Source of the DNA: Alphaproteobacteria bacterium
GTDB lineage: Bacteria; Pseudomonadota; Alphaproteobacteria; Rs-D84
Direction: 5' to 3'
Length of the DNA: 32,186 nt
Assembly: GCA_017427715.1 (NCBI GenBank)
Contig: JAFRSF010000018.1
Span: forward strand, 1-32,186
Numbering within the stretch: position 1 is the stretch's first letter; each line of letters opens with the position of its first letter. A program made the position numbers and the translations under genes. The notes beneath the pieces were generated by a model. It was not told the origin of the DNA. It made no database searches and worked only from the letters and a program-made list of their open reading frames with translations. Positions 2 to 26,558 of this stretch are shown piece after piece.

Positions 2-1537
2 ACACAACTAAGGCGTTGCTTAGTATTTTTGTTTTCCGCGGTATTGTTCATATCATCGGCATTTAGCGCGACACTTCCCAGTGAATATACGGAATTGGAA
101 TATATTGAATTACACGGTTGGACATATTTTAATACTAATGTCTATTTATCGAAAGATATGGATATTGAGTTTGAGTTTATGCCTATTCAATTAAATGTAG
201 GTGGAGGCGGAAATATTATGGGCGCAAGGTCAGTTAATAATCCAGGAACGGGATCTACATTTTTTTATAATATAAATCATCCAACTAACGGAACTAATAC
301 ATTGATTGATTTCTTTGGTTCTGATGCGACTGGGGCCAATGGTAGATGGCATGTTAAAAACAATGGTTCAGATTATGTTATGCAAAATAACAAAAAATAT
401 AAACTATCTATAACCAATAAAGTTGGGGTTCTTACTGCAGACGGAACAGTAATCGATACACATACATATCCAGCAAGTGGGACAGGTCCGATTACGGTAC
501 CTTTGTATATCCATGCATCTGATAATGCAGGTAATTTAGCATGGTCAAATGATCGGATAAGATTCTATCATTATTCTGCAACAGGGGTTGCAGATATAGT
601 ACCAGCAAGGAGAAATTCTGATAATGTGCTTGGTTTGTATAACAAAGTAAACGGTGAATTCTTAGAAAAATTGGGTTGTGACGATGGATACAAGGTATTG
701 GAATATTTAACATCAACTGGCACCCAATACATAGAAGATACAAGTTTTCAAACAATAGATACTGGTGCGATTGAAATAAAAACCAAAGATTTAGGGTACA
801 ATATTCGTTTTGTTGGGTTTGGAAATCGTGCTGATAGTAATGGTAATACTATCGCATTGGCAACAAATTGGACTTCCATGTCGTCATATAGTGATATTCC
901 TGTTTTTTATGGTTATTGGGACGATAGGTACAATAATGTAAATTACACACCTATTACTGTTTTTAGATATGAATTTACGCAAAGTTCACAAAAATTATAT
1001 ATAAACGGAACGTTAAATAAAAATCTCACTCAGACAAGGGGCAGTGCTTCAGGCAATTTTAGATTGTTTAAAGTATCTACAACTAATAATTCTACTACTG
1101 GTTCAAGTACAATCTATTATGCCAAAGTATTTGATGGTGATAATAATTTGTTAAGATATTATATACCTGTACGACGTGATGATGGTGTTTTGGGAATGTA
1201 CGATACTGTGACAGGAACATTCTTTACAAATCAGGGTACCGGCACATTCACAACGGATTCAGTTATAACAGATAAATGTATTTCAGATTATGTCGGTTTT
1301 ACATGTGATGGTAATAATAAAAAAATAAATATGTTAGGAAGTCAAGTTTGTTTGTCAGCAAGCAGACCGACTGGTTCGTATTTGGTGACACGATATAATG
1401 GCAACAAATATTATATTAATTTATCAGAAGAAACCCCGAATAATCCAAAACCAATAACAAGTGAATCAAATAACGTATTAAGAATAATTACAAATACTGC
1501 TACATATAATGCCCACGATGCATCCGTGTCGGAATAG
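2..1537 (+). CDS. Secreted protein with two LamG/concanavalin-like repeats (5' end missing)
   Basis: The reading frame is open from the first bases, so the gene is cut by the window edge. The codons before the first possible TTG start (29) read TQLRRCLVFLFSAVLF, which completes a signal peptide: two arginines, a hydrophobic core and a cleavage site near AFSA. The mature part holds two related repeats. The first begins YTELEYIELHG and ends near a SDNVLGLYN segment. The second begins KVLEYLTSTGTQYIEDT and ends RYYIPVRRDDGVLGMYD with NQGTGTF. The same pattern appears at the C terminus of the VirB6-like protein at 22854-24866. I associate this layout with LamG/concanavalin-like sandwich domains in gut bacterial and phage proteins. 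A tail with two cysteines and YNAHDASV follows. The likely role is a surface or secreted binding protein; the ligand is unknown. Its stop lies 2 nt from the stop of the convergent gene. Confidence 0.8.
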   Translation, partial: TQLRRCLVFLFSAVLFISSAFSATLPSEYTELEYIELHGWTYFNTNVYLSKDMDIEFEFMPIQLNVGGGGNIMGARSVNNPGTGSTFFYNINHPTNGTNTLIDFFGSDATGANGRWHVKNNGSDYVMQNNKKYKLSITNKVGVLTADGTVIDTHTYPASGTGPITVPLYIHASDNAGNLAWSNDRIRFYHYSATGVADIVPARRNSDNVLGLYNKVNGEFLEKLGCDDGYKVLEYLTSTGTQYIEDTSFQTIDTGAIEIKTKDLGYNIRFVGFGNRADSNGNTIALATNWTSMSSYSDIPVFYGYWDDRYNNVNYTPITVFRYEFTQSSQKLYINGTLNKNLTQTRGSASGNFRLFKVSTTNNSTTGSSTIYYAKVFDGDNNLLRYYIPVRRDDGVLGMYDTVTGTFFTNQGTGTFTTDSVITDKCISDYVGFTCDGNNKKINMLGSQVCLSASRPTGSYLVTRYNGNKYYINLSEETPNNPKPITSESNNVLRIITNTATYNAHDASVSE

Positions 1538-8429: not shown

Positions 8430-8453
8430 AAATCCCCAAGAAATTGGGGATTT
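8430..8453 (+). terminator. Terminator after the exported protein at 5571
   Basis: A perfect 10-bp stem AAATCCCCAA / TTGGGGATTT capped by a GAAA tetraloop, with T's continuing to 8456. Confidence 0.9.
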
Positions 8454-8461
8454 TTTAATTG

Positions 8462-8587
8462 TTATTCATCATCTTCTGATTCGCTTTCTGCGTCATCATC
8501 AGTGGCTGGGGCTGTAGTGCTCGCGCCATTTTTGCCAGAGTTAATTCTCCCCTTGGGGGGAGTACCGGCTAAGCCGGGGAGGGAGGT
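8462..8587 (-). pseudogene. Possible gene remnant: 41-codon open frame ending in an acidic tail
   Basis: On the minus strand the frame ends DDDAESESEDDE and then a stop, like the acidic C terminus of a real protein. Upstream it runs through the palindromic repeat (8541-8590), reading PGLAGTPPKGRIN, and meets an in-frame stop with no start codon. The simplest reading is a decayed gene whose 5' part was lost or replaced by the repeat. The parent protein is not recognisable. Confidence 0.3.
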
Positions 8588-8590
8588 TTA
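8541..8590. repeat. GC-rich palindromic intergenic repeat, copy 1
   Basis: CTCCCC (8547-8552) pairs with the GGGG...AG of the following run, and CCGGC / GCCGG (8565-8569, 8573-8577) forms a second hairpin. The 20-nt core starting TTAATTCTCCCC recurs in reverse orientation in the element at 10979-11042. The base composition is far more GC-rich than the surroundings. Confidence 0.65.
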
Positions 8591-8625
8591 GCATAACAAA
8601 ATCAATAAAAAATATTTTTTGCTGC

Positions 8626-8654
8626 TTTACACAAACTTTTTTTTATGATAAAAT
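8626..8654 (+). promoter_or_regulatory. Promoter for the coiled-coil exported protein
   Basis: TTTACA (8626-8631), a 17-bp spacer, and TAAAAT (8649-8654) preceded by TGa, an extended -10. The ATG at 8673 follows with AGAGAG just upstream. Confidence 0.7.
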
Positions 8655-8672
8655 TAACCCGTAAGAGAGAGC

Positions 8673-10952
8673 ATGAAAAACATATCACTTATTTTTTCAG
8701 CATTTTTATGTTCAGTGTCATTGTTGGCATTTGATGCGTGTGGCGCTGTGGCTACAACAGCGGGGTCTGATTTAACCGGCTATAACCCCAGCAATGCTTA
8801 TAACAATCAATGGGCAACGGCAACAAATGCACGTTATGATGGTTCTGTCACTGCCAAAGCGGACTTTGGTAATTGTAATGCACTGATAATGCGTTGCGCG
8901 CAACCAAAATGTGCAAACGGTGGTTGTAGTGATATGAATATTGCGGCGAATATTGTTGCGGGCTGCGTAAAATCAAATTCGAAATGTAAACAATACGGTG
9001 ATGATTTAATCCAATTTATGTCTGCACAGTTGGTTGCGGATTCAACTGCCAAGGTTAATGCATCAAACGCAGAACAAATTGCTGCTGCCCAGGCCGCAGC
9101 AGAGCAGGCACAAATGGCTGCACAACAGGCCGCCGCCGCTCAACAACAGCAAATGGCGCAAATGCAAAGCGATATGCAACAGCAAATGATGCAGATGCAA
9201 CAGCAAATGGCGGAACAAAATGCCCAATCGGCTCAGCAAATTGCAGATGCGTTGGCGCAAAGTCAGCAACAACAGGCGGCTGCGATTTCAGAAATGCAAT
9301 CTGCTGCGCAAAATGCGGCACGTGCAGAAATTGCTGGTGGCGCGGTGGTCACAACACCGCGTGTAGAGGCAGCAATCGAACGTGGTGTATCCGAAGAAGT
9401 ATTGGCGCGCGAACAAATTACTGGTCAAATTGTGACAGAACTTGAAAATGCGCAAACCCAATTACAAGCGGCCAAAGCAACCATGGAAGAAGCATTCAGA
9501 TACGCAAAATGTGATGATCGTGGGAACAATTGTGGTGGTCCAAAACGCGTGAAAAAATGGCGTGAATTGGCATCTGGATTTATGACACCGTATTATGGTG
9601 TGGTGGACAGTATTTATGATGCACTGATTACTGCCCAATCAGTTGGCGTAGATATGTCAGATATCTATATGATGTTGAATAATTCTTGTAATTCATGGGG
9701 TGAATACCTTTGCCCACCAGGGGAAAGAATTGTATATGATGTTGATGCCAAAGGACAAAAAGGTCAACCACAGGTATGTGATTATGATGAAAGTTATGAA
9801 TATCGCGAGTGTGTAAAAGATTGTCGAACTGACGATTTTGTGCAAGATGTTAATGGCTGTGTCAGTGGTTGTAGAAAAAAACATAAGGCAACATCCAATT
9901 GTCAACAATGCACTTTATTAAAAATATTAAATAACAAAGATGATGTTTATGCGGGATGGATTGATACTGAAAATGAATCATCCAGCAATCAAAAGGTTAT
10001 TGCCTGTGCGTCCCAGGCATTGTCAGATTCAACATTGTTTTCACGTAAAATGCGCGCAAAAAATGGTGCAGGATTGGTTGATATTGAAAAACTGGACCGT
10101 TGGATAAATCAAAAAGAGCCAGTTTCTTTGGATGCAGAAAAAGCAGTTGGTTATTGTTGGACCAGTGATACAGGTTTATCGGACGTTTTACAGCCAGCTC
10201 TGATAAGTAAAACAGTAGAGAAAAACAAGAATGCTTCTTTGTGTGTTCAAGATTTAAAATTAGATGTTCGTGCTGCCTATACACCAGATACATCAGAAGA
10301 TTGTGCATATATTAGACCTGTGTATGCTATCTGTGATACACATGTGTACAACATTAACGAGACATCAAATAATATCGATTCTACAAAACGTCAAAAAATG
10401 AACGAAGTAATTGCTGCCAAAATAACTGTTATTTCGCAACAGATGTATAAACAATATGAATATTTAAATGCCACATTACGCAGATTAAAAACTCAATTAT
10501 CTAAATCTGTCTTGACTGCACAATTACAGATGGCTGGCGCACAAAGCGATGGTTCTTCTGGTAATGCCAGTGGTTCTTCGTACCGCGATAACGACAAAGC
10601 AGTTGTTTTGGCTGGTGCTGAGAATTGTTCAAATAAAACAAATCAAGAAAGCGCATATTCTTGTTTGCAAAATAATATCAGTTTGATTATTACTAATGCT
10701 GATTCTAATAGTCAACAAGCATGTAAACAATTACGTTCGGCTATGAATGATGCGGTAACATGGAAAGTTTTGACTTCGTTTGATGCTTTAAAATCTGTGG
10801 ATGGCGACAGTTGTAAAACATTGAAAACTACATGTAACAAGAAATTGGTTAAACCTTGTGCGCAGGCATTAAACGTAGAAGTCAGTATTAAACGTGATAA
10901 TCGTCAACAGAATAATCAAAATATGCGTGTAATAACATTGGGTTCAAATTAA
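8673..10952 (+). CDS. Exported cysteine-rich protein with Gln/Ala/Met-rich coiled coil
   Basis: This 759-residue protein has an N-terminal signal sequence, MKNISLIFSAFLCSVSLLAF, with cleavage probably near ACGA. A lipobox is not convincing, because the residue at -3 would be Phe. A cysteine cluster follows (CNALIMRCAQPKCANGGC). Residues ~125-220 are a long Gln/Ala/Met-rich coiled coil (repeats like QMAQMQSDMQQQMMQMQQQM). Further cysteine pairs come in the middle (CVKDCR, CVSGCRKKH, CQQC) and a helical C-terminal half with dispersed cysteines follows. It is not obviously homologous to the 5571/12272 pair, but shares their export, cysteine content and position. It has its own promoter. The role is unknown; an elongated, disulfide-stabilised envelope component is plausible. 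Confidence 0.82.
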   Translation: MKNISLIFSAFLCSVSLLAFDACGAVATTAGSDLTGYNPSNAYNNQWATATNARYDGSVTAKADFGNCNALIMRCAQPKCANGGCSDMNIAANIVAGCVKSNSKCKQYGDDLIQFMSAQLVADSTAKVNASNAEQIAAAQAAAEQAQMAAQQAAAAQQQQMAQMQSDMQQQMMQMQQQMAEQNAQSAQQIADALAQSQQQQAAAISEMQSAAQNAARAEIAGGAVVTTPRVEAAIERGVSEEVLAREQITGQIVTELENAQTQLQAAKATMEEAFRYAKCDDRGNNCGGPKRVKKWRELASGFMTPYYGVVDSIYDALITAQSVGVDMSDIYMMLNNSCNSWGEYLCPPGERIVYDVDAKGQKGQPQVCDYDESYEYRECVKDCRTDDFVQDVNGCVSGCRKKHKATSNCQQCTLLKILNNKDDVYAGWIDTENESSSNQKVIACASQALSDSTLFSRKMRAKNGAGLVDIEKLDRWINQKEPVSLDAEKAVGYCWTSDTGLSDVLQPALISKTVEKNKNASLCVQDLKLDVRAAYTPDTSEDCAYIRPVYAICDTHVYNINETSNNIDSTKRQKMNEVIAAKITVISQQMYKQYEYLNATLRRLKTQLSKSVLTAQLQMAGAQSDGSSGNASGSSYRDNDKAVVLAGAENCSNKTNQESAYSCLQNNISLIITNADSNSQQACKQLRSAMNDAVTWKVLTSFDALKSVDGDSCKTLKTTCNKKLVKPCAQALNVEVSIKRDNRQQNNQNMRVITLGSN

Positions 10953-10978
10953 TAATCCATTAATTTCCTACAATGCAG

Positions 10979-11042
10979 TAATTCTCCCCCCCCAAGGGGA
11001 GAATTAATATGGTGGGTTGTGCCGGTATACCCCCAAGTGGGG
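10979..11042. repeat. GC-rich palindromic intergenic repeat, copy 2 (inverted)
   Basis: A perfect 11-bp stem, TAATTCTCCCC (10979-10989) / GGGGAGAATTA (10996-11006), is followed by CCGGTATAC and a small CCCC AAGT GGGG hairpin (11031-11042). Its reverse complement carries the same TTAATTCTCCCC core as the element at 8541. It lies after the stop of the exported-protein gene and might also act as that gene's terminator, although it lacks a clean T-run. Confidence 0.65.
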
Positions 11043-11082
11043 AATTGTTGTGATTGGCTATATCAGTACCAAAAAATACTTC

Positions 11083-11100
11083 TGCATAAAATTTTATGCA
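11083..11100. promoter_or_regulatory. Perfect 18-bp palindrome upstream of the rplU promoter (candidate operator)
   Basis: TGCATAAAATTTTATGCA is a perfect inverted repeat ending 6 bp before the -35 box of rplU. The position suits an activator or repressor dimer. It is too AT-rich and has no T-run after it that would mark a terminator. Confidence 0.45.
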
Positions 11101-11106
11101 AAATAC

Positions 11107-11134
11107 TTGACTTTTGGTATTTTAACCGTATAAT
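11107..11134 (+). promoter_or_regulatory. rplU-rpmA promoter
   Basis: TTGACT (11107-11112), a 16-bp spacer, and a consensus TATAAT (11129-11134). The leader to the rplU ATG is about 65 nt. Confidence 0.8.
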
Positions 11135-11204
11135 TTGCATAAATATTTCGTCAAAAGCGAAATTTTAAGTACAAGAACAACAATAAAAAAACAAGAGAAA
11201 GAAT

Positions 11205-11504
11205 ATGTCTATGTCTGCAATCTTTCAAACTGGTGGAAAACAATACCGCGTGGTTGAGGGCGATATTATCAAAGTTGAAAAACTGAATGCCACTGGTTCG
11301 GTCGATTTTGACCAGGTTTTAATGGTTGGCGACAAAATTGGAACACCGTTTATCGAAGGTGCCAAAGTTGTTGCTGAAGTTATTGAACAAAAACGTGATG
11401 ACAAAGTTTTGGTGTTCAAGAAAAAACGTCGTCAAAACTATCGTAGAACTGCCGGTCATCGTCAGTTTATCACTGTTTTGAAAATCAAATCAATCAAGGC
11501 CTAA
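11205..11504 (+). CDS. rplU: 50S ribosomal protein L21
   Basis: This 99-residue protein has the L21 signature from the start: [18 protein letters not shown], a central strand-rich region with VLMVGD and [11 protein letters not shown], and the C-terminal [16 protein letters not shown] rRNA-binding segment. L21 binds 23S rRNA in the large subunit. Two ATG codons (11205 and 11211) are both possible; most family members begin near the second. A purine-rich AGAGAAAG lies just upstream. It is followed after 30 bp by rpmA, the usual gene pair. Confidence 0.97.
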
Positions 11505-11534
11505 CACGGACCCGTATAACGAAGGAGTTTAATT

Positions 11535-11798
11535 ATGGCACATAAGAAAGCTGGTTCTGCAACCTCTAACGGACGTGATTCAGCCGGACGCAGATTGGGT
11601 GTGAAAAAAAGTGGCGGCAGCCGCGTCATACCTGGAAATATCATCATTCGCCAACGTGGAACTACGGTCCACCCTGGCTTGAATGTTGGTATGGGCAAAG
11701 ATCATACTTTGTTCGCTAAAATCGCTGGAATTGTTTCCTTTAAACGTGGAAATGGCGACAGAAAAACTGTTTCTGTTATTCCAGACGAATCTAAATAA
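11535..11798 (+). CDS. rpmA: 50S ribosomal protein L27
   Basis: This 87-residue protein starts [20 protein letters not shown], the standard L27 N terminus that reaches the peptidyl-transferase centre, and continues with GVKKSGG and [13 protein letters not shown]. No N-terminal prosequence of the Firmicutes type is present. AAGGAG at 11522-11527 sits 7 nt before the ATG. It is co-transcribed with rplU and closed by the terminator at 11836. Confidence 0.98.
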
Positions 11799-11835
11799 AT
11801 CATCTATTTCCTTTTGGTGATTTTTTGTTATGTTT

Positions 11836-11861
11836 ACCGCTGATTTTATCGGCGGTTTTTT
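11836..11861 (+). terminator. Terminator after rplU-rpmA
   Basis: A 9-bp stem ACCGCTGAT / ATCGGCGGT (one T-G wobble), loop TTT, then a T-run. Confidence 0.85.
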
Positions 11862-11911
11862 GTTAGATTGATTCTTTTTATCAATGGTTGTGTATTCGTT
11901 CTGGGGTGGCA

Positions 11912-12050
11912 ACAGCCCGTTGGGCTGTGTCATTGCGAGCATACGATAGTATGCGTGGCAATCCAGGTTTATAATATGTGTTCAGCTTTGCTGAACTACT
12001 TTTTTATTTACCTGGATACTCACGCGGACTGACGTCCGCTCAGTATGACA
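11912..12050. repeat. Multi-hairpin cruciform repeat element
   Basis: A short hairpin, ACAGCCC-GTT-GGGCTGT (11912-11928), adjoins an element with outer arms TGTCAT (11928-11933) and ATGACA (12045-12050). Inside are arm 1, ATTGC..GCATAC-GATA-GTATGC..GCAAT (11932-11962), then a central stem ATCCAGGT (11961-11968) / ACCTGGAT (12010-12017) holding hairpin GTTCAGC-TTT-GCTGAAC (11980-11996). Arm 3 is ATACT..GCGGAC-TGAC-GTCCGC..AGTAT (12016-12046). It resembles the dispersed TGTCATTGCGAGC-type intergenic repeats seen in many bacteria. No coding capacity. Confidence 0.75.
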
Positions 12051-12137
12051 ACATTCTGGAATATGGTTCATTAATTTGTTCCTGTCGCCAATTGTTTTCC
12101 CACCCACGGCGGGGAAACAATTATGATTCTAGAATGT
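12051..12137. repeat. Second nested palindrome abutting the cruciform element
   Basis: Outer arms ACATTCT (12051-12057) and AGAATGT (12131-12137) enclose AATTGTTTTCCC (12090-12101) and GGGGAAACAATT (12111-12122). It starts at the base after the previous element, so the two may be one compound repeat. From 12138 to 12249 I see nothing else before the next promoter. Confidence 0.6.
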
Positions 12138-12249
12138 ATTCATTTTCGCATAAAGCAGGACTGGCAATGTTATGAATATGAAATCAAAATGGCTGTAATA
12201 AATCGTATTGAAAAATTACTTTAATATTCTTTTTTTTACCCTTTTTTTA

Positions 12250-12258
12250 TGATATAAT
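12250..12258 (+). promoter_or_regulatory. Extended -10 promoter of the exported protein at 12272
   Basis: TGaTATAAT; no good -35 box is seen at 16-18 bp, only a T-run. The -10 ends 13 nt before the ATG, so the leader would be very short, with GAAAGAA next to the start. Confidence 0.6.
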
Positions 12259-12271
12259 ATTCACGAAAGAA

Positions 12272-14617
12272 ATGAAACGGTTTGCTTTGTATTTTTTCTT
12301 GGCTGTTTTTCGTACCGCTGCTGTTATGGCGGCCGGGGATGTTGCTATATCGCGTGCAATTCCTGTAAAAAATGATACAGAAAACACGGTTACAGAACGC
12401 AAAGAAAACACAAATATAAATCGTGCGGCGCGGCGTGTGAACGTTGTCAATAATGCCGAAGATAAAACAGTTACAGCGCGTAATACGGCGCGAACAAATG
12501 TAAAATCAAATGATGCTGTATCCAGAACAAAATCAAATGTGACATCTCGTTCGCTAAATAATACGAAATCCGTTTCATCGCGTCCAACAGTGGAAGATGG
12601 CGCAAACACAGTTGGTCGTAATGCGCGCGTAAATGCAGCCAGTATTAACAGCAGTGCGGCTGTCAGACGCGCTGGTTTGACACTGCGGGCATCCACAGCA
12701 GAGGTTGGTGGTCGTGCGATGATAATAGGTACAAATAAACAAACTGGTTCTAATATAGACGAACAAATTCGCAATGTTCAATCCAGGGCTGCGTTTGTGT
12801 TGGGAGGCAAGCAAAAACAGACACTTGTTACGTCAGAATCTTTGGCAAATGCAAAAGATATTTTAGAAAGAACAGCAGATTTGAATAATACTTGTCAGCA
12901 GCAGTATAACGAATGTATGGATCAATTTTGTGCAGTGGTTGATGCAAACCAAAAACGATGCAGTTGTTCTGCTAATTTATCAAGATATGTCAAAGCACAA
13001 AAAGCGGTCGAAGATGCAAACATTGAATTAAACGATGTTGCGCAAAGAATCCGGTATGTTGGATTATCTGCAGATGAAATTCGTGCGATTATGTCCGCGA
13101 CAGAGGCAGAAGATGCCATGACCAGAACTAAGGACACAACAGAAAATCGTTCTTTGTTGGATAAAATTGCAAATATGATTGAAGACCCGACAGCCAGCAC
13201 CAGTGCCACAGACACCAGCGGTATTTTAGATTTGGATTTTGATTTTTCTTCTGATTCAAATGAAATATTTGGTCTGAATTTAAGTATTGGTGGGTCGTCT
13301 AATGATATTTCAAAGAAACGTGGTGCAGATTTATATCGTGAAGCGACCAAACGTTGTAAATCAGTACTGTCAAATTGCAAAGACGCAGGTGGAACAGAAT
13401 CGCAAATAACTGGTAATTATGATTTGGCAATTGACAAAGATTGTATTGCATACGAACAAGGTCTTGATAAATTAAATAAAACATTGGTTTCTAATGTACG
13501 CAGTGCAAATATCATGTTGCAAAAAGCACGTCTTGCTGTGTTACAAAACAAAAATCAATATAATGCAAGTGGATGTGTCGGTGCGCTTGAAAAGTGTATG
13601 TTGGACGATATGGTTTGTGGCGATGGTTATTTGAAATGTGTTGACCCAACTAAAAAATATATCGATGAAAACGGAACAGTTGTCGTAGGACAACAAATTA
13701 CATCTATATTTGGTCATATGATAAATTATAACAATACAGCCATAGATTCTAATTTTATCAGAACGGCGGTTTCTTCGGGCAAGGTTTGTCAAGAATTGGA
13801 TGATGGTTCATGTATTGTAAATTATTTGATGAAAAAAATAGGTACAGGTCAAAGCACCAAAGATGGTGGTTTATGTCGTGCTGTATTGGATAAATGTCAA
13901 TATTATACGTATACGACAAATAATGCGTCATCTGTGTACAATCCATATAATGATGTTGTTGTGAATTATATTCAGCGTGCAATGGTAAACATCAAAGCAG
14001 CACAATCACGCATAGTGTCTGATTACGCAGCAAATTGTTTGGCTGATATGTCTGAATGTTACAATCAACAATTAACCCAGATAAACACTATGACAACATC
14101 TGCAAATATCGAAAATGTTAGAAAGGTTATGACTGGCGCATGTCGTAATGTTGCGTTAACTTGCGGTTATGCAGTGTTTGCATATAACCAAGATGTTGCA
14201 AGTGAAGCAGAAGAATGTGCAACCTGTACCAGTTCTTGTCCAAGCGATTGTACATCTGCTGGTGATGATGAAGAAAAGAAAGAAATTAATCGCAGAAATG
14301 TATATATAAACAGAATATCAGAAGTATTCTATCAATCATTGCTGTGTCCGGAAAATTCAACGTATAATCCTGAGCTACACGAAGCAAATGTGAACAGAAC
14401 TATAAATGGTTATGTAAATGCAAAATGTCAATGCAATGCTGGTTATACTGTATGGGACGGCGCATGTATGCTGACATGTCCAGATACCGAATATCGTAAC
14501 AATTACGGTATATGTTCAAAGTGTTCAAGTGGTTATACAGCAAGTGGTGGTAACAGTGAAGGTTATGAACAACATACAGAAAACGATGATTGTGAACAAC
14601 AAGTTGCTGAATCATAA
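12272..14617 (+). CDS. Exported cysteine-rich protein, paralogue of 5571-8426
   Basis: This 781-residue protein starts MKRFALYFFLAVFRTAAVMAA, a signal sequence. Residues ~20-150 form a basic Arg/Asn/Thr/Ser-rich low-complexity tract. Then comes the module shared with 5571-8426: CQQQYNECMDQFC, KRCSC, a helix with AVEDANIEL, and a TEAEDAM stretch matching TEAEQVM. Central modules have paired cysteines (CVGALEKCMLDDMVCGDGYLKC, CLADMSEC). The C-terminal CPENST, CQCNAGYTV and CSKCSSGYTASGG match the paralogue. The protein is probably periplasmic or on the surface; no enzyme motif is visible. Its promoter is an extended -10 with almost no leader, and a bidirectional terminator separates it from dnaQ. 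Confidence 0.85.
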   Translation: MKRFALYFFLAVFRTAAVMAAGDVAISRAIPVKNDTENTVTERKENTNINRAARRVNVVNNAEDKTVTARNTARTNVKSNDAVSRTKSNVTSRSLNNTKSVSSRPTVEDGANTVGRNARVNAASINSSAAVRRAGLTLRASTAEVGGRAMIIGTNKQTGSNIDEQIRNVQSRAAFVLGGKQKQTLVTSESLANAKDILERTADLNNTCQQQYNECMDQFCAVVDANQKRCSCSANLSRYVKAQKAVEDANIELNDVAQRIRYVGLSADEIRAIMSATEAEDAMTRTKDTTENRSLLDKIANMIEDPTASTSATDTSGILDLDFDFSSDSNEIFGLNLSIGGSSNDISKKRGADLYREATKRCKSVLSNCKDAGGTESQITGNYDLAIDKDCIAYEQGLDKLNKTLVSNVRSANIMLQKARLAVLQNKNQYNASGCVGALEKCMLDDMVCGDGYLKCVDPTKKYIDENGTVVVGQQITSIFGHMINYNNTAIDSNFIRTAVSSGKVCQELDDGSCIVNYLMKKIGTGQSTKDGGLCRAVLDKCQYYTYTTNNASSVYNPYNDVVVNYIQRAMVNIKAAQSRIVSDYAANCLADMSECYNQQLTQINTMTTSANIENVRKVMTGACRNVALTCGYAVFAYNQDVASEAEECATCTSSCPSDCTSAGDDEEKKEINRRNVYINRISEVFYQSLLCPENSTYNPELHEANVNRTINGYVNAKCQCNAGYTVWDGACMLTCPDTEYRNNYGICSKCSSGYTASGGNSEGYEQHTENDDCEQQVAES

Positions 14618-17492: not shown

Positions 17493-18776
17493 TTATTTTG
17501 CAACCTTTTTCTTTACAATTTCTGTTGCTAAATTTCTTACATTTGTCCATAAAGTTTTTGCATCAGCATTTAATTGTTTGCCAAATGAATTATCGATTTT
17601 GCCACCAATATCTGTTGCCATTTTATCTGATTGATTTGCCAGATAAAACACAAAGCAACCGGATAATATAATTGTCACAGCAGACCCTGTTGTATATTCA
17701 TTGGCACCATTTAATGAAATAACATTAGATAACAACGCAGCACAAATTGCTATGACAATAGATAAACATACAAAATATATCACAGCATTTATAAATACAG
17801 TTAACACAGCAGATGTTTTTTGCGTATTAACAAATAAAGAAACAAAACCATTATATATTCGGCCTGGTATGTTTTCACCATCAGGTGCTTTGCTCAAAGA
17901 TTCTGCTACTGCGGTAAACGGTAACAATAACAAAGTTAAAAATAAATCTACAATAACCCCCAAAGTCATAAACGCGAATTTGAATATACATGCGATAAAC
18001 ATGACAATTGATATTATACCAACAATGACCATAGTTGGACTGCTTTTTAATCCAGCAGTCACCCATTGAAATCCGGTTGCCACAGCATGATAAAAGAACA
18101 TTGATATACGTGTAGGTAAACACATAATGTTTGCAGCGGTATCTGCATCAAATAATAATTTTTCTGTATCTAAATTATTGCTAACATAATTATGAATTGC
18201 AGCACAAGTATCAGGAATATTTATTTTGTATGTGTTCGCTACGGCATTCAAAATAAAATCAGATAAATATGTTCCTAATGCCAATATTGGCGATACCACA
18301 GCAGAAAATATTTTTGCTGGACCGTAATTTAAAATAAAAATCCATACTGCGATAGTAATTCCTTGTTTAAATATATCATAGAATACTTTTTTATAATCGG
18401 TTGATTCTTTAATCATTTTATATGCGGATAAACCAATCCATATGGTATACATAGTCAGCAAAAATATAATTATAAAGCGCACCAAAGAAACTTGTAAAAT
18501 ATAATCTACACCAGATAATGCTTTCATAAAAGCCAACCCAATTTTTGCTTCTATTGGAATAAAGTTTTTCGCATCAATATTCAGTTTTGGTTCAAACTTT
18601 TTGAAATCGGATGAGATATTTGAATTAAATTGTTCAATATTTGTTGGATTTAACCAATTACCATAATCACCGACTTCGCCGGTTGGAATATTGGTTGCAG
18701 CGACAGAAACACTGCATATTAAAAATATGCTGCTGATACATATCAGTAATCTAGAAAATATTTTACCAATACGCAT
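17493..18776 (-). CDS. VirB6/TrbL-like polytopic membrane protein (last gene of the four-gene minus operon)
   Basis: This 427-residue protein begins with a signal-like segment (MRIGKIFSRLLICISSIFLICSVSVA) and a soluble stretch, then about six hydrophobic segments. The order VRFIIIFLLTMYTIWIG, GITIAVWIFIL, the VVSPILALG motif, then long hydrophobic pairs ending in GSAVTIILSGCFVFYL fits VirB6/TrbL channel proteins of type IV secretion. The x-P-h-h-x-h-G motif (VSPILALG) recurs in all five VirB6-like proteins here. A short cytoplasmic-type tail with KTLWTNVRN closes it. The gene starts 15 nt after the stop of the gene before it, and AAGGAG overlaps that stop. VirB6 forms part of the inner-membrane channel in known systems. 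The partner genes are not in this window. Confidence 0.75.
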   Translation of the reverse strand: MRIGKIFSRLLICISSIFLICSVSVAATNIPTGEVGDYGNWLNPTNIEQFNSNISSDFKKFEPKLNIDAKNFIPIEAKIGLAFMKALSGVDYILQVSLVRFIIIFLLTMYTIWIGLSAYKMIKESTDYKKVFYDIFKQGITIAVWIFILNYGPAKIFSAVVSPILALGTYLSDFILNAVANTYKINIPDTCAAIHNYVSNNLDTEKLLFDADTAANIMCLPTRISMFFYHAVATGFQWVTAGLKSSPTMVIVGIISIVMFIACIFKFAFMTLGVIVDLFLTLLLLPFTAVAESLSKAPDGENIPGRIYNGFVSLFVNTQKTSAVLTVFINAVIYFVCLSIVIAICAALLSNVISLNGANEYTTGSAVTIILSGCFVFYLANQSDKMATDIGGKIDNSFGKQLNADAKTLWTNVRNLATEIVKKKVAK

Positions 18777-18791
18777 ATTTTATTTTACTCC

Positions 18792-20237
18792 TTATTTTGA
18801 TTTACCTTTGACCGATTTGTATGCGTTATATATTTTTTCTGGCGCTTCATAAACAGCTTTACCAAAGCTTTTAACCCATGTTCCAAAATCAAATGTTTCT
18901 TTGCTACTGCCGCCAATTTTCGCATCTATCTTTGGTGATACAATCCAGAAATACAAGAACGCAATACCAATCATAAACATCAAGAAATAAAATCCATCAT
19001 CCATAAAATCAAAAGCATGTGGATATTTTTTTGTTACAACTGCACGTTGTGTATTAAAACAAGTTAGAAATTTATCTTTGTTCATTTTGCCGTCAACCAA
19101 TGAAACCTGTTCGCATTGTGAAAATACGTTCATCACAGACATTGTTTCTGAATCTGGATTTTGAATTGTGATTTTGCCAAACAAAGGTGGCATAAAACTT
19201 GTAAAGCCATCAGTTGGACCTGGGTAAAATGAATCTGCTGCAAAATATACCACTGCATAAATGATACTGATTTTCAAACTAATTTTAATTATACTGACAG
19301 CAGATTGAACCAGTTTATTTATTGCATTATTCATTACATCTTTCGCCAATTTCCATACTTCTTGAAATGCAGATGCGGCTAATAAAATCGGCATAAATAC
19401 AATAATGAAAATTAATTTGAAAATAACATTTAATACCTGAAAGACCAAATCAAATCCAATTATTAAAAATGCCAGCACCAAAGTTAAACCAGCTAGCCAC
19501 GTAAACAATCCGCCACCCAATCCCAACCAAGAATAATTCATTAATGCAAAACCGCCACCAGCACCAGCCAGCATAACAGTATTCAAATTACCCATTACGC
19601 ACATAAATGGTCTTAACACAGGTGTTAAAACATTGTCATCATTTTTTTCTAAATCAATTTCACAATGTGCATTGCTGACAACATCGGTTGTTGCCATAGA
19701 TAACATAGACCCCAAATACATCACAGGTGTCACAGTTATATTTGTGACTGTTCTTAATGCACCGGTCCCCGCCCAATTCAAAGCGCCAATCAATGTTCCT
19801 ATAATCAAAACCCTGATACCTGTTTTCCATACTTTGTCAAACCATTTAGAAAAATCTAGTTTTGGGTCAGTTCCAGACAAATCTTTGATATCTTTGGAAG
19901 ATGCCTGTTCATGAAAATATTTCACAGTGTGCAATATTATAAATATTCCAAATCCAACAGCCATCAATATCCATAAATTATGAACAATGCCATTCCAAAA
20001 CATTTCTGTGGCACGTCCAATAACATCAAACAATTCTGCAATGTATTTACATAAAAAACATCCATTAGCAGATGCAATATCGCCATTTTGGACACCAATT
20101 TGCTGCATAAAATTATTCATACTGGTATAAGATAACGCAGTGCCACCGATAGAAGAACTTAAATACCAAATACCAACACCCAATGCGGCTGCACAGGTTA
20201 AAAACTTAATTAGTAAAGATATTAATATCGTCTGCAT
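18792..20237 (-). CDS. VirB6/TrbL-like polytopic membrane protein
   Basis: This 481-residue protein has an N-terminal hydrophobic segment (LISLLIKFLTCAAALGVGIWYL), then GCFLCKYIAELFDVIG, a CxxC region like the CWTC of two sister proteins. Further segments are LWILMAVGFGIFIILHTV, VLIIGTLIGALNWAG, TVTPVMYLG (the shared P-h-h-x-h-G motif), a Gly/Ala-rich stretch, and VFKLIFIIVFMPILLAAS with following helices. The last segment (FLMFMIGIAFLYFWIV) precedes a basic tail. Its ATG shares one base with the stop of the upstream gene (TAATG), indicating translational coupling. Role inferred: a channel subunit of a type IV secretion-like complex. Confidence 0.78.
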   Translation of the reverse strand: MQTILISLLIKFLTCAAALGVGIWYLSSSIGGTALSYTSMNNFMQQIGVQNGDIASANGCFLCKYIAELFDVIGRATEMFWNGIVHNLWILMAVGFGIFIILHTVKYFHEQASSKDIKDLSGTDPKLDFSKWFDKVWKTGIRVLIIGTLIGALNWAGTGALRTVTNITVTPVMYLGSMLSMATTDVVSNAHCEIDLEKNDDNVLTPVLRPFMCVMGNLNTVMLAGAGGGFALMNYSWLGLGGGLFTWLAGLTLVLAFLIIGFDLVFQVLNVIFKLIFIIVFMPILLAASAFQEVWKLAKDVMNNAINKLVQSAVSIIKISLKISIIYAVVYFAADSFYPGPTDGFTSFMPPLFGKITIQNPDSETMSVMNVFSQCEQVSLVDGKMNKDKFLTCFNTQRAVVTKKYPHAFDFMDDGFYFLMFMIGIAFLYFWIVSPKIDAKIGGSSKETFDFGTWVKSFGKAVYEAPEKIYNAYKSVKGKSK

Positions 20238-21466
20238 TATTTTTTAGTGTCGTTTTTTTTGTCTTCCTTTTTGGTTTCTTTTTTTGCTTCTTTTGTTTCT
20301 GCTGGTTTTACAGTTTTATTAACAATGTTTTGCACCAACGTTTTTGTTTGACCTGCAACAATATTTGTTAATGCCCATGTGTTTTTACCCATTTCGTCTG
20401 ACAAAGCGGTTTCTTGTTTAACATCAAAAGTGTTCATGATTTCTTTTGTGACATCTGGTATTTTTTTAGCCAGATATTGTACCACGAACACCAATACAAT
20501 CATTCCAAAAAATGTTATCTGAATTGCAGATGGATTGTCCAGATTAAAATCGAAAATCGATTTAACATCATTTTGAAATGAATCAACATTTATTCCGTGT
20601 CCGTTCAAATAACCACGAATGATTAAAATAATAACTGTATAAGTCAATATAGTAGCAGCCACAGAAACAATAGCAGTTATTAATTTTTTAATTTGTCCGC
20701 CACCCAAATTTTTACCAAGATTTTTCATCCATTCAGGTAAATTAGACGCACCTTGGAATATAAAAAATATCAAAGATAACGGGAAAAAGAACGCAAACAT
20801 AGCCATAGCCACAACTATATCCATAAAGCAGAATAAATATTTAATAAAAAATTGTACAAAATAATATGTTAAGAATAAACCAACAAAAAATACCAACAAT
20901 CGTTTTATTAACAATGACAAATTGAATATTGTCGGGATTGAAAAAGCGGAATCTATCACAGCAATACCTAATTTGATGAAAACCTGGAAATGTGCCACAT
21001 TGGTTTGCAACAGTTTTATAATAGTATCCCGTAATTCTGGGTTAAAAAATCCTTTGTCATCCAATTTAATCGGCAAATAATCATCATTAATTTGATAACC
21101 ATCAGGTAACATCGCTTTGGAATATTCTAGTGTAACCATTGCAACGGGTTCAAAAGTAATTTTTGAAATGAAACGTGGTACTGTTAATCCCAACCCTAAC
21201 AAAGATAAAACAAACAACGATTTTATTAACACGGGTTTAACAGATTCTTGAAAGTAAGGGTCTTTCATATCTGATTTCATGTTTTGCCAAAACGCATTTA
21301 TTACATAAACAGCAAACAATATACAGAAAATAATAACACCAAAAATCGTCAATTGTTCATATAACGCAGCAGCAGTGTTTGATATTATTTCAAACAATTT
21401 ATCGAACAATGGACATGTCCAGCATCGTGTTCCATTATCTATTAAAATGTTCGCCAATTCTTTCAT
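20237..21466 (-). CDS. VirB6/TrbL-like membrane protein with CWTC motif
   Basis: I chose the ATG at 21466 (409 aa, MKELANILIDNGTRCWTCP), 7 nt after the upstream stop. The longer frame begins with TTG at 21508 inside the upstream gene. The N terminus has CWTCPLFDKLFEII, very like CWTCQIFSDVM in the protein at 22854. Hydrophobic segments follow (LTIFGVIIFCILFAVYVI, SLFVLSLLGLGLTV), then ITFEPVAMV (shared P motif), paired long segments (LLVFFVGLFLTYYFVQFF, VVAMAMFAFFFPLSLIFFIF) and two more. The C-terminal 40 residues are almost all Lys, Glu, Thr and Asp, a charged tail probably in the cytoplasm. Likely a type IV secretion channel subunit. Confidence 0.78.
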   Translation of the reverse strand: MKELANILIDNGTRCWTCPLFDKLFEIISNTAAALYEQLTIFGVIIFCILFAVYVINAFWQNMKSDMKDPYFQESVKPVLIKSLFVLSLLGLGLTVPRFISKITFEPVAMVTLEYSKAMLPDGYQINDDYLPIKLDDKGFFNPELRDTIIKLLQTNVAHFQVFIKLGIAVIDSAFSIPTIFNLSLLIKRLLVFFVGLFLTYYFVQFFIKYLFCFMDIVVAMAMFAFFFPLSLIFFIFQGASNLPEWMKNLGKNLGGGQIKKLITAIVSVAATILTYTVIILIIRGYLNGHGINVDSFQNDVKSIFDFNLDNPSAIQITFFGMIVLVFVVQYLAKKIPDVTKEIMNTFDVKQETALSDEMGKNTWALTNIVAGQTKTLVQNIVNKTVKPAETKEAKKETKKEDKKNDTKK

Positions 21467-21473
21467 AACAGTG

Positions 21474-22784
21474 TTACTTTTTTGTGTTCGCCTTTTTTGC
21501 TGTGTCAATAATCTTTTTGATTACATCAGGACTTGATTTTGTCTTTTCCCACAAACGTTTACCTGTGGTTGATATATCGTTGTACAAATCTGTTTTTACT
21601 CCAGAATATTTTTCCAGTTGTTCGCGTGTCATTTTGAATACTGCATACATCAAGAAAAATGTTAAAATTGAAGATAACCATAACACAGAATGTTGACCGA
21701 AATGCGATGCTGAATTTGTAATGGTTGGAACATTAGATGACACAATATTACCAGATTCTGTTACAAATGGTGACGCAGACCAATTAAACAAAGCGCGCAC
21801 CAGTGCAATATTTATACATAATATAAACGCACAAGCAATCATGGTTATAATTAATTTTTTTAATGCATCTATAATTTGATTGAACGCAGGCAACACATCA
21901 AACCATTCATCGGATTTTTTCGCAACCCATGCTAGAACCTTAAATGGATACATAATCAAAGCCAAACAAAAATCAAATATACCTTGGATAATTAACAAAG
22001 CCATAAATAAATTAGATGATACAAATGCCGCAATCAATAGGATGCCAGTAATTACATTCAAGATATCTTCGCCACCATGTGGAATTATGGTTATTAAACC
22101 ACTTAAACCACGTTTCAAGAAATCAAAACCGTATGCAATTACACGATTGTTTTCTTTGGATATAGTGTACACAGGTTGAATCAGAAAATCGCAACTGCGT
22201 TTTGATATCCATCCATGTTCTTCTATGGATACAGGACATGCCGGTGCAGAAGATATATCTTTAGCGTTTGGATTAATGGTTTGTAAAATACTGTTCGTGT
22301 AAATTGCACCAAATTCAAGAAATGGGTTTACCAGCCAATTTGTAACATATATTGGTTTAATTTGTAGCAATACAACACCCGCAATTATAGCGCGTAAACA
22401 TGGTTTTAACATGTTTTCAGCAATAGACCAAGCAGTTGTTTTTTTATCCCACAATTCGCCACCATTTGAAAAACCAAATAAACCCAGCCAATCTTTGGGA
22501 AAATACATTTTGACCAAATACAATACCAAATAAAATGCTAAGAATGCATAAATTAAAATATAAATCCAACCAGTTCCATTGCCAACAAAATATTTATAAA
22601 GCGATGTTGCTATATTCATCATTGTTTCTAATACCAACGGTACAAAAGGTGCTAGATTAAAAGAATCTAATAAACTTTGTTCTGCCCAGGCATTTTCAGG
22701 TGTCATTATGCACATCAAAACCAAACCCAATAACAAAGGGGTATGTGAAAATATCCTGTTTAATATGGTCTTCAAAGTGTGCAT
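21474..22784 (-). CDS. VirB6/TrbL-like membrane protein, first gene of the minus-strand operon
   Basis: This 436-residue protein has a signal peptide (cleavage near NAWA) and then hydrophobic segments GWIYILIYAFLAFYLVLYLV, LRAIIAGVVLLQI, WLVNPFLEFG (the shared P-h-h-x-h-G motif), ILLIAAFVSSNLFMALLIIQG with ALIMYPFKVLAWV, LIITMIACAFILCINIALV, and SILTFFLMYAVF. The tail TGKRLWEKTKS resembles the LW-containing tails of its sisters. AGAGAGA precedes the ATG at 22784. Transcription probably starts from the extended -10 at 22813-22821. The first gene of four packed ones. Confidence 0.77.
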   Translation of the reverse strand: MHTLKTILNRIFSHTPLLLGLVLMCIMTPENAWAEQSLLDSFNLAPFVPLVLETMMNIATSLYKYFVGNGTGWIYILIYAFLAFYLVLYLVKMYFPKDWLGLFGFSNGGELWDKKTTAWSIAENMLKPCLRAIIAGVVLLQIKPIYVTNWLVNPFLEFGAIYTNSILQTINPNAKDISSAPACPVSIEEHGWISKRSCDFLIQPVYTISKENNRVIAYGFDFLKRGLSGLITIIPHGGEDILNVITGILLIAAFVSSNLFMALLIIQGIFDFCLALIMYPFKVLAWVAKKSDEWFDVLPAFNQIIDALKKLIITMIACAFILCINIALVRALFNWSASPFVTESGNIVSSNVPTITNSASHFGQHSVLWLSSILTFFLMYAVFKMTREQLEKYSGVKTDLYNDISTTGKRLWEKTKSSPDVIKKIIDTAKKANTKK

Positions 22785-22853: not shown

Positions 22854-24866
22854 ATGAAAGTGTTAAAAAAAATTTGGCTATATCTTGTTGCTCTGATGCC
22901 ATTGTCGGCGGGTGCAGTTACCCCATTGGTTATTGGTGGTGCTGCACTGGGTGTCGGTATAGTGGGGGTTTCTGTGTGGCGCAGTGTATCACCAGTCAGT
23001 ATCAGTGATGCTTTAGATTTTTTTACTTCGTGTTGGACGTGCCAGATTTTTTCTGATGTTATGGTTGTAATGTCTAATTTGTTGCCTGGGGTTTACAAAG
23101 CGCTTGGACGAATCGTTATACCAATGTCTGTAACCTTGTTGGTCATTTTAATTGCTTGGCGGTTAACATCTGGATTTTTTAATGCGAAAATGGACAACAG
23201 TAATAAATTATTGGGTAATTTTGGCACCTATCTTGTAAAAATGACAATAATGATAAGTTTGCTTCTAATGCCATTACCAAGATTTTTAACTAGTGTGTTA
23301 ATAGAACCAGCGTTAACATTAGGAACTTCGTTGGATTATATCGTTTCAGATAATAACAATTTTGCAGAATGTATGGTCGCAACAGCATTGGCAGACCCCG
23401 TAGTTGCATCGGCGGATGTCACAGAATATGGGGCATTTTCACCGAAACTGCGTCATCAGTTGGCTTGTGAAGTCGCAAATGTTCATCAAATTACTGGTTT
23501 AGGGATGACTGTGGGTTGGACTATGTTGAATATGGCTTTTAATGCTGATTACATGCACAAGATTTTCAACAGTATACCATTTTTCCCAAATATCCCGCTG
23601 TTTGTTGTTGGTTTGTTGATATTGGTGTTATATTTCTTTGCTTTATTGCCTGTTCCGCTGTATTTTCTAGAAATATTTATAAAATTATCATTAGATTTAA
23701 TAATGTTGCCATTGATGTTAATGGCATGGATGTTTGATGAAGATGGATTTGCCATATTTCCAAAGGGTGGCAAAACGATTCGCCAAATGATAGATGATGT
23801 TATCAAAGCAATAGTAGGAATTGGATTAACAGTTATATTTTTATCGTTTTCAGTAATGTTTTTGAATGCTTTATTTGATAATGTTAATGGGATTAACAGT
23901 TTGCAATATGCAATCGCTAATAACGATTCAAAAATATTCATGGATGGATTGCTTTTACGTGATAGCAATTTAATAACAGTTATTTTAATTGGTCTGTTTT
24001 TGGCTATGTTTATGACCATGATTCCACAATTGGTAGATATGTTATTCAGTATAAAAGTACCAGATGGATATTATAAAACAGTGAAAAATGATTTGGGAAT
24101 ATTATGGAAAGATATGAAACAAATTGTAACGGGTAAAAAAGATAACAAAACAACAAACACCGCTGATTCTGGTGACGGTGGCGGTTCTAGTGGTGGTAGT
24201 GGCGGTGGTTTAGGGTCTTTGTATACACCGAATCAAACAAACAAAAAACAATATACAGAACTTGAATATATTGAATCAACCGGTACACAATACATTGACA
24301 CAGGTATAAACCCAGCAGATGATATTGATGTGCTTATGGATATGCAAATTAAATCTGGCATAACATTAACATCCGGAACAGATGCATTTTTGTTTGGCGC
24401 CAAAGACGGTCAACAAAATAGTGCTTTTGGTGTAGCAATTTTGTACCAAAATGACCCTTTGTCTGTTTATGCAGAATATGGTTCTGTCAATGGCAGCGGA
24501 AATATGGGATATCCAATAACAGGTTCCATAATGCATTTAAGTTTTATTGATGGGGCTGTGATTGTTAATGAACGTGGCAAAAGCAATAATACACATGTAG
24601 TGAGATTGTCTAAACAATCATTTGCCACATCATGGCCAATGTTTTTGTTCGGTATGAATGCTCATGGTATTTTCACTTCTTCTGCCCCAGTTCGACTTTA
24701 TCAGTGCGGTATTCACAGAAATAATAAAACCAGTGATGCTATTCGGTTGTTTATTCCTGTGTTAGACAGCGATAATATACCATGTTTATACGATATTATA
24801 GAAAAAAAGTTTTATTATAATCAAGGAACAGGTCAATTTATTGCTGGACCAAAAAAATATAAATAA
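22854..24866 (+). CDS. VirB6/TrbL-like membrane protein fused to a C-terminal LamG/lectin-like domain
   Basis: Start ATG 22854 gives 670 residues; the frame runs further upstream but across the promoter. Residues ~1-420 are VirB6-like: an N-terminal hydrophobic region, DFFTSCWTCQIFSDVM (CWTC as in the protein at 20237-21466), IVIPMSVTLLVILIAW, VLIEPALTLG (the shared P motif), a long double segment (VVGLLILVLYFFALLPV..LMLPLMLMAWMF) and LITVILIGLFLAMFMTMI. Residues ~434-455 are a Gly/Ser linker. From ~466 to the end lies a domain starting YTELEYIESTGTQYIDTG and ending RLFIPVLDSDNIPCLYD and NQGTGQF, the same kind as the two repeats at the window start. Rickettsial VirB6 proteins also have extended tails. 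Inference: the tail presents a binding domain at the cell surface. Topology is not proved. Confidence 0.83.
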   Translation: MKVLKKIWLYLVALMPLSAGAVTPLVIGGAALGVGIVGVSVWRSVSPVSISDALDFFTSCWTCQIFSDVMVVMSNLLPGVYKALGRIVIPMSVTLLVILIAWRLTSGFFNAKMDNSNKLLGNFGTYLVKMTIMISLLLMPLPRFLTSVLIEPALTLGTSLDYIVSDNNNFAECMVATALADPVVASADVTEYGAFSPKLRHQLACEVANVHQITGLGMTVGWTMLNMAFNADYMHKIFNSIPFFPNIPLFVVGLLILVLYFFALLPVPLYFLEIFIKLSLDLIMLPLMLMAWMFDEDGFAIFPKGGKTIRQMIDDVIKAIVGIGLTVIFLSFSVMFLNALFDNVNGINSLQYAIANNDSKIFMDGLLLRDSNLITVILIGLFLAMFMTMIPQLVDMLFSIKVPDGYYKTVKNDLGILWKDMKQIVTGKKDNKTTNTADSGDGGGSSGGSGGGLGSLYTPNQTNKKQYTELEYIESTGTQYIDTGINPADDIDVLMDMQIKSGITLTSGTDAFLFGAKDGQQNSAFGVAILYQNDPLSVYAEYGSVNGSGNMGYPITGSIMHLSFIDGAVIVNERGKSNNTHVVRLSKQSFATSWPMFLFGMNAHGIFTSSAPVRLYQCGIHRNNKTSDAIRLFIPVLDSDNIPCLYDIIEKKFYYNQGTGQFIAGPKKYK

Positions 24867-25007: not shown

Positions 25008-25015
25008 TCACAGTG

Positions 25016-25525
25016 ATGAGAAAGTTTCCGATTCTTTATTGGCCACATAAAACAAATGGTAATACTGATTACCAGTTGGCTCGCAAGGTTATAAATAATG
25101 CCACTGGCCTAATGCCAGAGGTTATTATTAACGATTTGGATATTTCAAGTATTTTTGATAAAAACGAAGATGCCACTATATATTATCCGGTGTTATGTGA
25201 ATCTACTGGTTGGTGGGGCGAATTGTTGGGTGGAAACGGGGTCATTATTGATAAAATTATCGTTTCTCCAGAGTGTCAATTGATGGTGATTGTTGCTGAA
25301 TCAAAGGCAGATTTGCATGGAAATCATCAATTGTTGGCTGCTGAAATATTACCATCTAGCGGTTTTTTCAAGAAAATGAATTCTTCTATTGCCACTGTTG
25401 CTGATATGTTGGCTACAGATGCTGGTACGATTTTGGCTTTGTTTTCTGGAAAAAATCAAAGTCAGTTTGTAAACATTATCGAATCGACCGGTAATTCTTA
25501 TTTGGGTTGTATTGGTCAATATTAA
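25016..25525 (+). CDS. Unknown cytoplasmic protein
   Basis: This 169-residue protein starts MRKFPILYWPHKTNGNTDYQ; a GTG three bases earlier is also in frame. It has no signal peptide or membrane helix. It contains a stretch of alternating hydrophobics (IIDKIIVSPECQLMVIVAES), then ADLHGNHQLLAAEILP, then a helical part (ATVADMLATDAGTILALF). I do not recognise the family. Its own promoter and the absence of an obvious terminator before rpmE leave open read-through into rpmE. The clean start next to a consensus promoter and normal codon use argue that it is a real gene. Confidence 0.7.
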   Translation: MRKFPILYWPHKTNGNTDYQLARKVINNATGLMPEVIINDLDISSIFDKNEDATIYYPVLCESTGWWGELLGGNGVIIDKIIVSPECQLMVIVAESKADLHGNHQLLAAEILPSSGFFKKMNSSIATVADMLATDAGTILALFSGKNQSQFVNIIESTGNSYLGCIGQY

Positions 25526-25547
25526 CATAAATAAACACAACTTTATC

Positions 25548-25575
25548 TTGATTTTATGAAAAAAGCAGGTATAAT
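25548..25575 (+). promoter_or_regulatory. rpmE promoter
   Basis: TTGATT (25548-25553), a 16-bp spacer, and TATAAT (25570-25575). Confidence 0.7.
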
Positions 25576-25616
25576 CTTCGGGCTATAGTTAATTTTGTAA
25601 ATAAAAGGACACAACG

Positions 25617-25829
25617 ATGAAAAAAGGAATTCATCCAGAATATTATGAAATCAACGTCACTACGACTGACGGGAAAACAGTAAAAATGTATTCTTCTGTA
25701 AACAGAGATTTGGTTTTGTCTATGGACAATTTGAATCATCCAGCATGGACAGGTCAACGCAATAATGACAGTGTAAAAGGTAAACGTGCTGCTGAATTCA
25801 AAAACAAATTTGCAGGATTTAATTTCTAA
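25617..25829 (+). CDS. rpmE: 50S ribosomal protein L31, cysteine-free type
   Basis: This 70-residue protein begins MKKGIHPEYYEINVTTTDG and has the conserved HPAWTGQ near the middle and KFAGFNF at the end. L31 bridges the large and small subunits. The zinc-binding cysteines found in some L31 proteins are absent, as in many alphaproteobacteria. AAAGG lies 8 nt before the ATG. The next gene begins 18 nt after the stop, so the two are probably one operon. Confidence 0.95.
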   Translation: MKKGIHPEYYEINVTTTDGKTVKMYSSVNRDLVLSMDNLNHPAWTGQRNNDSVKGKRAAEFKNKFAGFNF

Positions 25830-25847
25830 ACAATTTGGTAACGGACA

Positions 25848-26558
25848 ATGGATTTGCTGATAAAAGGTTCAACAGAATTAAACAAGATGTTTGCGGCATT
25901 GCAAAATACGGCATCTGGTTTACGTCATGATTTCGGCGAAGTTGAAAATCTTCAGCAATCTTTGCGTGGCGCTCGTGATTTTGTGGCTAAGGCATCTGCC
26001 AGAATAGAAGAAAGCATATTGTCTGATTTGCAGTTGGTTCGTCCGTCAGCAGGTCTTTTGACACCGGATGTATCAAAATCTGGTGATGGGCGTGATGAAT
26101 TTGTTTTGGCTTTGTCGGGTGCATCTAATTTTGTTCGTGGTAATCCGCATTTTGCAATATCTTTGGCTTTGCGGACAAATGGTGAAACAAAAATTGCTTT
26201 GGTTTATTCACCCATAGATGAAAGATTGTACTATGCAGAATCTGGTTTTGGTGCATATGTGTTTTCTGCATATCATTCTGAAAAAATTCATGTATCTAAT
26301 TTACAAGAACCATCAGATTTAACGATTTGTTATAACACAAATGGTATTCGACCAGTGATTGCAGGTAATGCACGTGAAACAGGTTGTCCGGCATTGGATT
26401 TGGCATGGGTTGCGGCTGGCAAAATAGATGCCTTTGTATCTGACCCATTGGATTTTGCGGAAATGGCTGCTGGTGAATTGTTGGTTCGCGAAGCGGGTGG
26501 TAAAATTACTTTTAATGGTGCAGATGTTATTGCAACCAACGGAAAAGTTGAATTATAA
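25848..26558 (+). CDS. Inositol-monophosphatase-like (SuhB family) protein with degenerate active site
   Basis: This 236-residue protein has the IMPase fold signature: GNPHFAISLAL, ALVYSPIDERLYYAESGFGA and AAGELLVREAGGKI. Active enzymes have DPxDGTxNF; here the matching stretch is LALSGASNF (87-95), so both metal-binding aspartates and the Thr are lost. The GEE motif upstream is not visible. The WDxAAG motif reads AEMAAG, with Asp replaced by Glu. It is therefore probably not a working phosphatase. In E. coli, SuhB acts in rRNA antitermination independently of its catalysis (established). The position 18 nt after rpmE makes a similar non-catalytic role a reasonable inference. Confidence 0.78.
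   Translation: MDLLIKGSTELNKMFAALQNTASGLRHDFGEVENLQQSLRGARDFVAKASARIEESILSDLQLVRPSAGLLTPDVSKSGDGRDEFVLALSGASNFVRGNPHFAISLALRTNGETKIALVYSPIDERLYYAESGFGAYVFSAYHSEKIHVSNLQEPSDLTICYNTNGIRPVIAGNARETGCPALDLAWVAAGKIDAFVSDPLDFAEMAAGELLVREAGGKITFNGADVIATNGKVEL

Follow-up and report, generated by a model that had tools for sequence, protein, structure and literature searches.

A VirB6-like protein with a LamG-like C-terminal domain in the genus Candidatus Enterousia

Extended VirB6 proteins of type IV secretion systems (T4SS) consist of a VirB6-like hydrophobic core and a large C-proximal hydrophilic domain (PMC12857230). According to the excerpts of the published descriptions consulted, those of the Rickettsiales (RvhB6a-e; Anaplasma VirB6-1 to -4) are encoded in tandem virB6 arrays (PMC2653234), the vir genes are dispersed, and large hydrophilic extensions flank the VirB6 region. 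The same excerpts give no recognised fold for these extensions and describe the tails of Anaplasma VirB6-3 and -4 as repeats. TraG of F and SXT-type elements is likewise described as a VirB6-like membrane region joined to a hydrophilic C-terminal domain (PMC7648143), the latter acting in entry exclusion together with TraS. TrwI, the VirB6 protein of plasmid R388, ends in a short Arg/Ala/Gly-rich tail and lacks a beta-sandwich.

Here we describe a gene from a window of 32,186 nucleotides (the whole stretch of DNA that was analysed; contig JAFRSF010000018.1, assembly GCA_017427715.1) that encodes a VirB6-like core to which a short linker attaches one LamG-like domain. The source is a 1 Mb metagenome-assembled genome (MAG) of Candidatus Enterousia, a genus of the order Rs-D84 with reduced genomes and a predicted dependence on a partner (PMC12306168). 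Orthologues are recorded under Enterousia or as gut or rumen Alphaproteobacteria MAGs. A preliminary description, made from the sequence of the window, had likened the protein to the rickettsial extended VirB6 proteins, and this likeness is borne out by the tandem array, the dispersed vir genes and the hydrophilic extension. TraG is set beside it by description only. While extended VirB6 proteins are already known, a LamG-type tail on one of them appears to be new: among the hits listed in the literature searches there was no LamG or lectin domain on a VirB6 protein, in agreement with the preliminary description.

Architecture of the fused protein and identity of its core

The frame starts at ATG 22854, which coincides with the starts of the orthologues in the alignment; a GTG at 22779 in the same frame is an alternative start that would add 25 amino acids. 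Residues 1-430 are polytopic and the remaining 240 residues are hydrophilic, and the full-length AlphaFold model combines a helical core with a disordered linker and an all-beta tail. In searches of Pfam and NCBIfam neither core nor tail gave a usable match. Hits to the NCBIfam families YhgE/Pip and TOMM were weak, far under the cut-offs, and were rejected. The features of the locus are collected in Table 1.

Table 1. Features of the analysed window
Feature	Position	Strand	Evidence
Exported protein with two LamG-like domains	2..1537	+	Tail HMM at residues 29-226 and 230-420; hydrophobic N-terminus
Probable VirB6 paralogue, 427 aa	17493..18776	-	hhalign to core profile, E 8e-4, nearly full length
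Probable VirB6 paralogue, 481 aa	18792..20237	-	hhalign to core profile, E 9e-4, nearly full length
VirB6-like paralogue, 423 aa, RCWTC motif	20237..21508	-	hhalign to core profile, E 5e-10
Divergent polytopic neighbour, probable VirB6 paralogue, 436 aa	21474..22784	-	hhalign to core profile, full length, weak, E 1e-3
Fused gene (VirB6-like core, Gly/Ser linker, LamG-like tail), 670 aa	22854..24866	+	Single uninterrupted frame; architecture recurs in five further genus genomes
VirB6-like polytopic core, residues 1-430	22854..24143	+	Orthologues in 149 of 156 genus genomes; AF2 match to 8rtd_L; invariant columns
Gly/Ser-rich disordered linker, residues 426-463	24129..24242	+	pLDDT <50; G/S-rich linkers in other fused proteins
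LamG/concanavalin-like beta-sandwich, residues 466-670	24249..24863	+	AF2 pLDDT 92; LamG/LNS/pentraxin matches; domain-family alignment
Downstream genes: 170 aa protein, bL31-like (25617-25829), inositol-monophosphatase-like	25013..26558	+	Synteny marker

The core begins with a signal-like N-terminus and contains a CWTC motif, hydrophobic helices and an acidic central loop whose residues C173 and C205 are invariant among the orthologues of the genus. The VirB6/TrbL family is recognised by a conserved Trp in the cytoplasmic loop that follows the third membrane segment. W292 is also invariant in the genus and may be equivalent to the essential Trp of Agrobacterium VirB6. Structural comparison of the core model (AF2, residues 55-402) aligned 262 of 268 residues of 8rtd_L with a Z score of 12.7, a value to be read with the caution that, in the tool used, helical matches below about 13 may be common arrangements. 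The entry 8RTD is the R388 stalk-arches-inner-membrane complex, and from the entry, the chain size and the corresponding papers we take its chain L to be TrwI/VirB6 (PMC9259494, PMC11294453).

Sequence comparison gave an indirect link. Pfam TrbL (PF04610), which recognises R388 TrwI itself with an E-value of 4.9e-50, did not directly match the target or any of the 46 aligned members, a difference from the Rickettsiales proteins. The core query did, however, match frames in two genomes from another family of the order (G046, E 7e-5; G043, E 3.3e-4; E-values computed per genome), and both of these frames pass the TrbL cut-off. Profile-profile comparison (hhalign) of the core with ten plasmid VirB6 proteins was not significant (E 0.31, controls similar), and PDB sequence searches with the core, and with profiles of core and tail, returned nothing significant. 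Because the direct TrbL profile test failed, we call the core VirB6-like; it is not a certified member of the VirB6/TrbL family.

The genomic context is that of a T4SS. VirB3-VirB4, VirB8-VirB9-VirB10 and VirD4 are encoded on separate contigs of the same genome, and four divergent neighbouring genes at 17493-22784 matched the core profile over most of their length, with controls at E 0.2 or more. Target and neighbours thus form a probable five-gene VirB6-like array, comparable to the rickettsial one. For the 423 aa paralogue, matches also lie at the corresponding upstream site, on the other strand, in several genomes of the genus. VirB6-like tandem arrays also occur in another family of the order (L118-L123), where one gene per array carries a Lys/Glu-rich C-terminal tail of several hundred residues. 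The VirB9 homologue of the source genome (L116:9337-10833, contig C24) shows a weak C-terminal match to the peptidoglycan-binding SPOR domain (E 2.7e-4, barely past the Pfam cut-off), which may be a further case of a T4SS component with an envelope-binding domain. Window positions 5454-14617 hold three large, apparently exported Cys-rich proteins.

Modelled on its own, from an alignment of 37 copies of the domain, the tail reached a pTM of 0.88 at the pLDDT given in Table 1. Foldseek and VIA-align placed it with LamG/LNS domains (agrin, neurexin, laminin), pentraxins such as CRP/SAP, PAPP-A and related ConA-like folds at Z scores of 12-16, at a sequence identity of only 5-17%. None of the Pfam LamG-type profiles matched the target tail, whereas one of the 37 aligned copies matched Laminin_G_3 (3.8e-6).

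The preliminary description had read the protein as a VirB6-like region, a Gly/Ser linker and a LamG/concanavalin-like tail of a type that appears twice in the protein at the window start. All of this is confirmed by the models, by the T4SS context and by an HMM of the fused tails, which finds both domains at the window start (i-E 1.5e-11 and 4.9e-20). The expected profile match of the tail was obtained for a relative and not for the tail itself. A frameshift or misassembly joining two genes is ruled out, since the same architecture occurs with intact open frames in five other genomes, four of them separately published MAGs. Overall, we hold this architecture and both folds with high confidence.

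Distribution and origin of the tail

An orthologue of the core is present in 149 of the 156 genus genomes, and linker and tail were found in six of these: the source genome (G000), UBA1218 (G064), UBA1185 (G065), RGIG6783 (G086), RGIG9986 (G100) and G024. For this count C-termini were read directly at 74 loci, 80 overlapping loci were screened, and the rest were judged by the length of their open frames, which are too short to hold a tail. All other orthologues whose C-terminus was read end no more than about 15 residues from position 430. Since only six of 149 orthologues carry the tail, the T4SS does not need it. In G022, G062 and G140, each at least 96% complete, no match to a virB6 orthologue was obtained.

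The fused genes sit in a conserved gene order. The downstream genes, two of which we take from our own reading of their sequences to be bL31-like and inositol-monophosphatase-like, follow virB6 in the same order in the tailless relatives L190, L184 and L192. The tailed proteins lie scattered over the core tree and require three changes there. In the tail tree five tails form one group with a support of 99/97 (97/90 with another row set), and share 38-44% identity with the target tail and conserved Cys residues. The G024 tail falls outside this group and its fusion was probably acquired independently, although an AU p-value of 0.056 leaves some room for a common origin. The grouping of the five tails despite their scatter on the core tree points either to one gain with losses or to transfer of the 3' end of the gene. 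In pairs with finite dS, the core gave a dN/dS of 0.05-0.15 and the tail one of 0.17-0.45, which is likewise below 1, but dS is saturated.

The domain is not restricted to VirB6-like proteins. Seven matches were found in the source genome and 17-26 in some other members of the genus, while a search of phage records with a hand-made consensus query found none. Most free-standing copies start with a signal-like hydrophobic stretch, as judged from copies with a readable N-terminus (frames cut by contig or locus ends were left out). Exported proteins bearing the same domain are also the sister group of the five tails. In two tailless relatives such a gene lies about 1.9-2.1 kb downstream of virB6, following the conserved bL31-like and IMPase-like genes (L190:6193-6966, at about 1.9 kb, and L184:4631-5161). 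The tail domain was probably captured from a gene for an exported LamG protein, and the sister-group position together with the presence of such a gene near virB6 suggests a possible local donor. In the source genome, exported LamG-like proteins are found at the contig ends of C11, C17 and C7 (window positions 2-1537, L002 and L003). Their N-termini are near-identical and their C-terminal parts share a conserved motif (YNAHDASV or a close variant), and this multi-copy family seems to break the assembly.

Location and possible role of the tail

Published data on the VirB6 C-terminus are in conflict. It was reported to be cytoplasmic for VirB6 of Agrobacterium (by reporter fusions; PMC6120205), for Brucella and for ComB6 (PMC6120205, PMC7648143). 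In contrast, only two N-proximal helices of R388 VirB6 lie in the membrane and its bulk forms a periplasmic pentamer (PMC9259494, PMC12857230), and the extended tails of Anaplasma are extracytoplasmic, with the C-termini of VirB6-3 and -4 surface-exposed and accessible to trypsin (PMC7648143).

We read the protein as a lineage-specific extended VirB6 and favor, at a probability of roughly 0.45, that five of its LamG modules form a ring on the periplasmic side of the channel base. If the VirB6-like core forms a pentamer at the foot of the T4SS stalk, as VirB6 does in R388, five modules would be brought together around the channel. Facing the periplasm, which we judge to be the likeliest single option, they may recognise a glycan or protein of the envelope or a ligand derived from the partner, and such binding would anchor or gate the secretion machine. 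The periplasmic side is suggested by the periplasmic bulk of R388 VirB6, the export of the other carriers of the domain and the extracytoplasmic tails of Anaplasma. A more specific version, in which a fivefold pentraxin-like array at the stalk base senses or holds an envelope-glycan or partner-cell ligand and couples its binding to channel opening, is unlikely in our estimate.

The same considerations speak against a tail that remains in the cytoplasm, which is nevertheless quite possible. In this arrangement the protein would adopt the N-out, C-in topology with five crossings of Agrobacterium VirB6, and the tail would bind other proteins at the foot of the secretion machine, e.g. to dock a substrate or an ATPase. 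Several features of the protein are at odds with a periplasmic tail and fit a cytoplasmic one. In the orthologues read, the residues past the last hydrophobic helix are Lys-rich and form an amphipathic C-terminal helix; under the positive-inside rule, this charge suggests that the C-terminus is in the cytoplasm. Helix 247-293 of the model has a break of a single residue and may pass through the membrane just once, which would give five crossings. The long Lys/Glu-rich C-tails of VirB6-like proteins in the other family of the order point in the same direction. Finally, the tails of the five-tail clade contain 2, 5, 7, 4 and 4 Cys (3 in G024), odd numbers in some, with a mean of 4.4 compared to 0.8 in the other copies, where the comparison counts five related tails as independent and sets them against all non-fused copies, exported or not. 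This enrichment would fit a reducing compartment, an argument tempered by the fact that the five tails belong to one clade. For the topology of the C-terminus, which the preliminary description had put up for prediction, the charge pattern suggests C-in, while exported relatives and R388 homology suggest C-out.

The preliminary description had further proposed that a surface-exposed tail turns the secretion channel into an adhesive one, here towards host or partner cells. LamG and pentraxin folds often bind ligands outside cells. Together with the exposed C-termini of Anaplasma VirB6-3 and -4 and the predicted partner dependence of Enterousia, this would agree with an adhesin. The geometry does not: the stalk of R388 alone measures 216 A, and a tail of 240 residues, i.e. 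one small domain on a flexible linker of roughly 36 residues, is unlikely to reach from the inner membrane across periplasm and outer membrane. We thus consider adhesion at the surface improbable. Even less probable is a tolerated accident of little function. The rarity of the fusion, its scatter on the core tree and the faster evolution of the tail would be expected of such an accident, but the tails of the clade have stayed intact and have kept their shared Cys despite their divergence, and the sixth fusion probably arose on its own.

According to a 2025 review, it is not yet known what the complex domains found in extended VirB6 proteins contribute to T4SS structure or function (PMC12857230). 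The extension described here folds in a recognisable way, is carried by only some members of one genus, and has otherwise tailless orthologues with an identical gene order to set beside it. The question of what such tails do therefore becomes testable, since just one domain and one linker are involved and the tailless orthologues provide a natural control. The tail could also report on where the VirB6 C-terminus lies, which is disputed.
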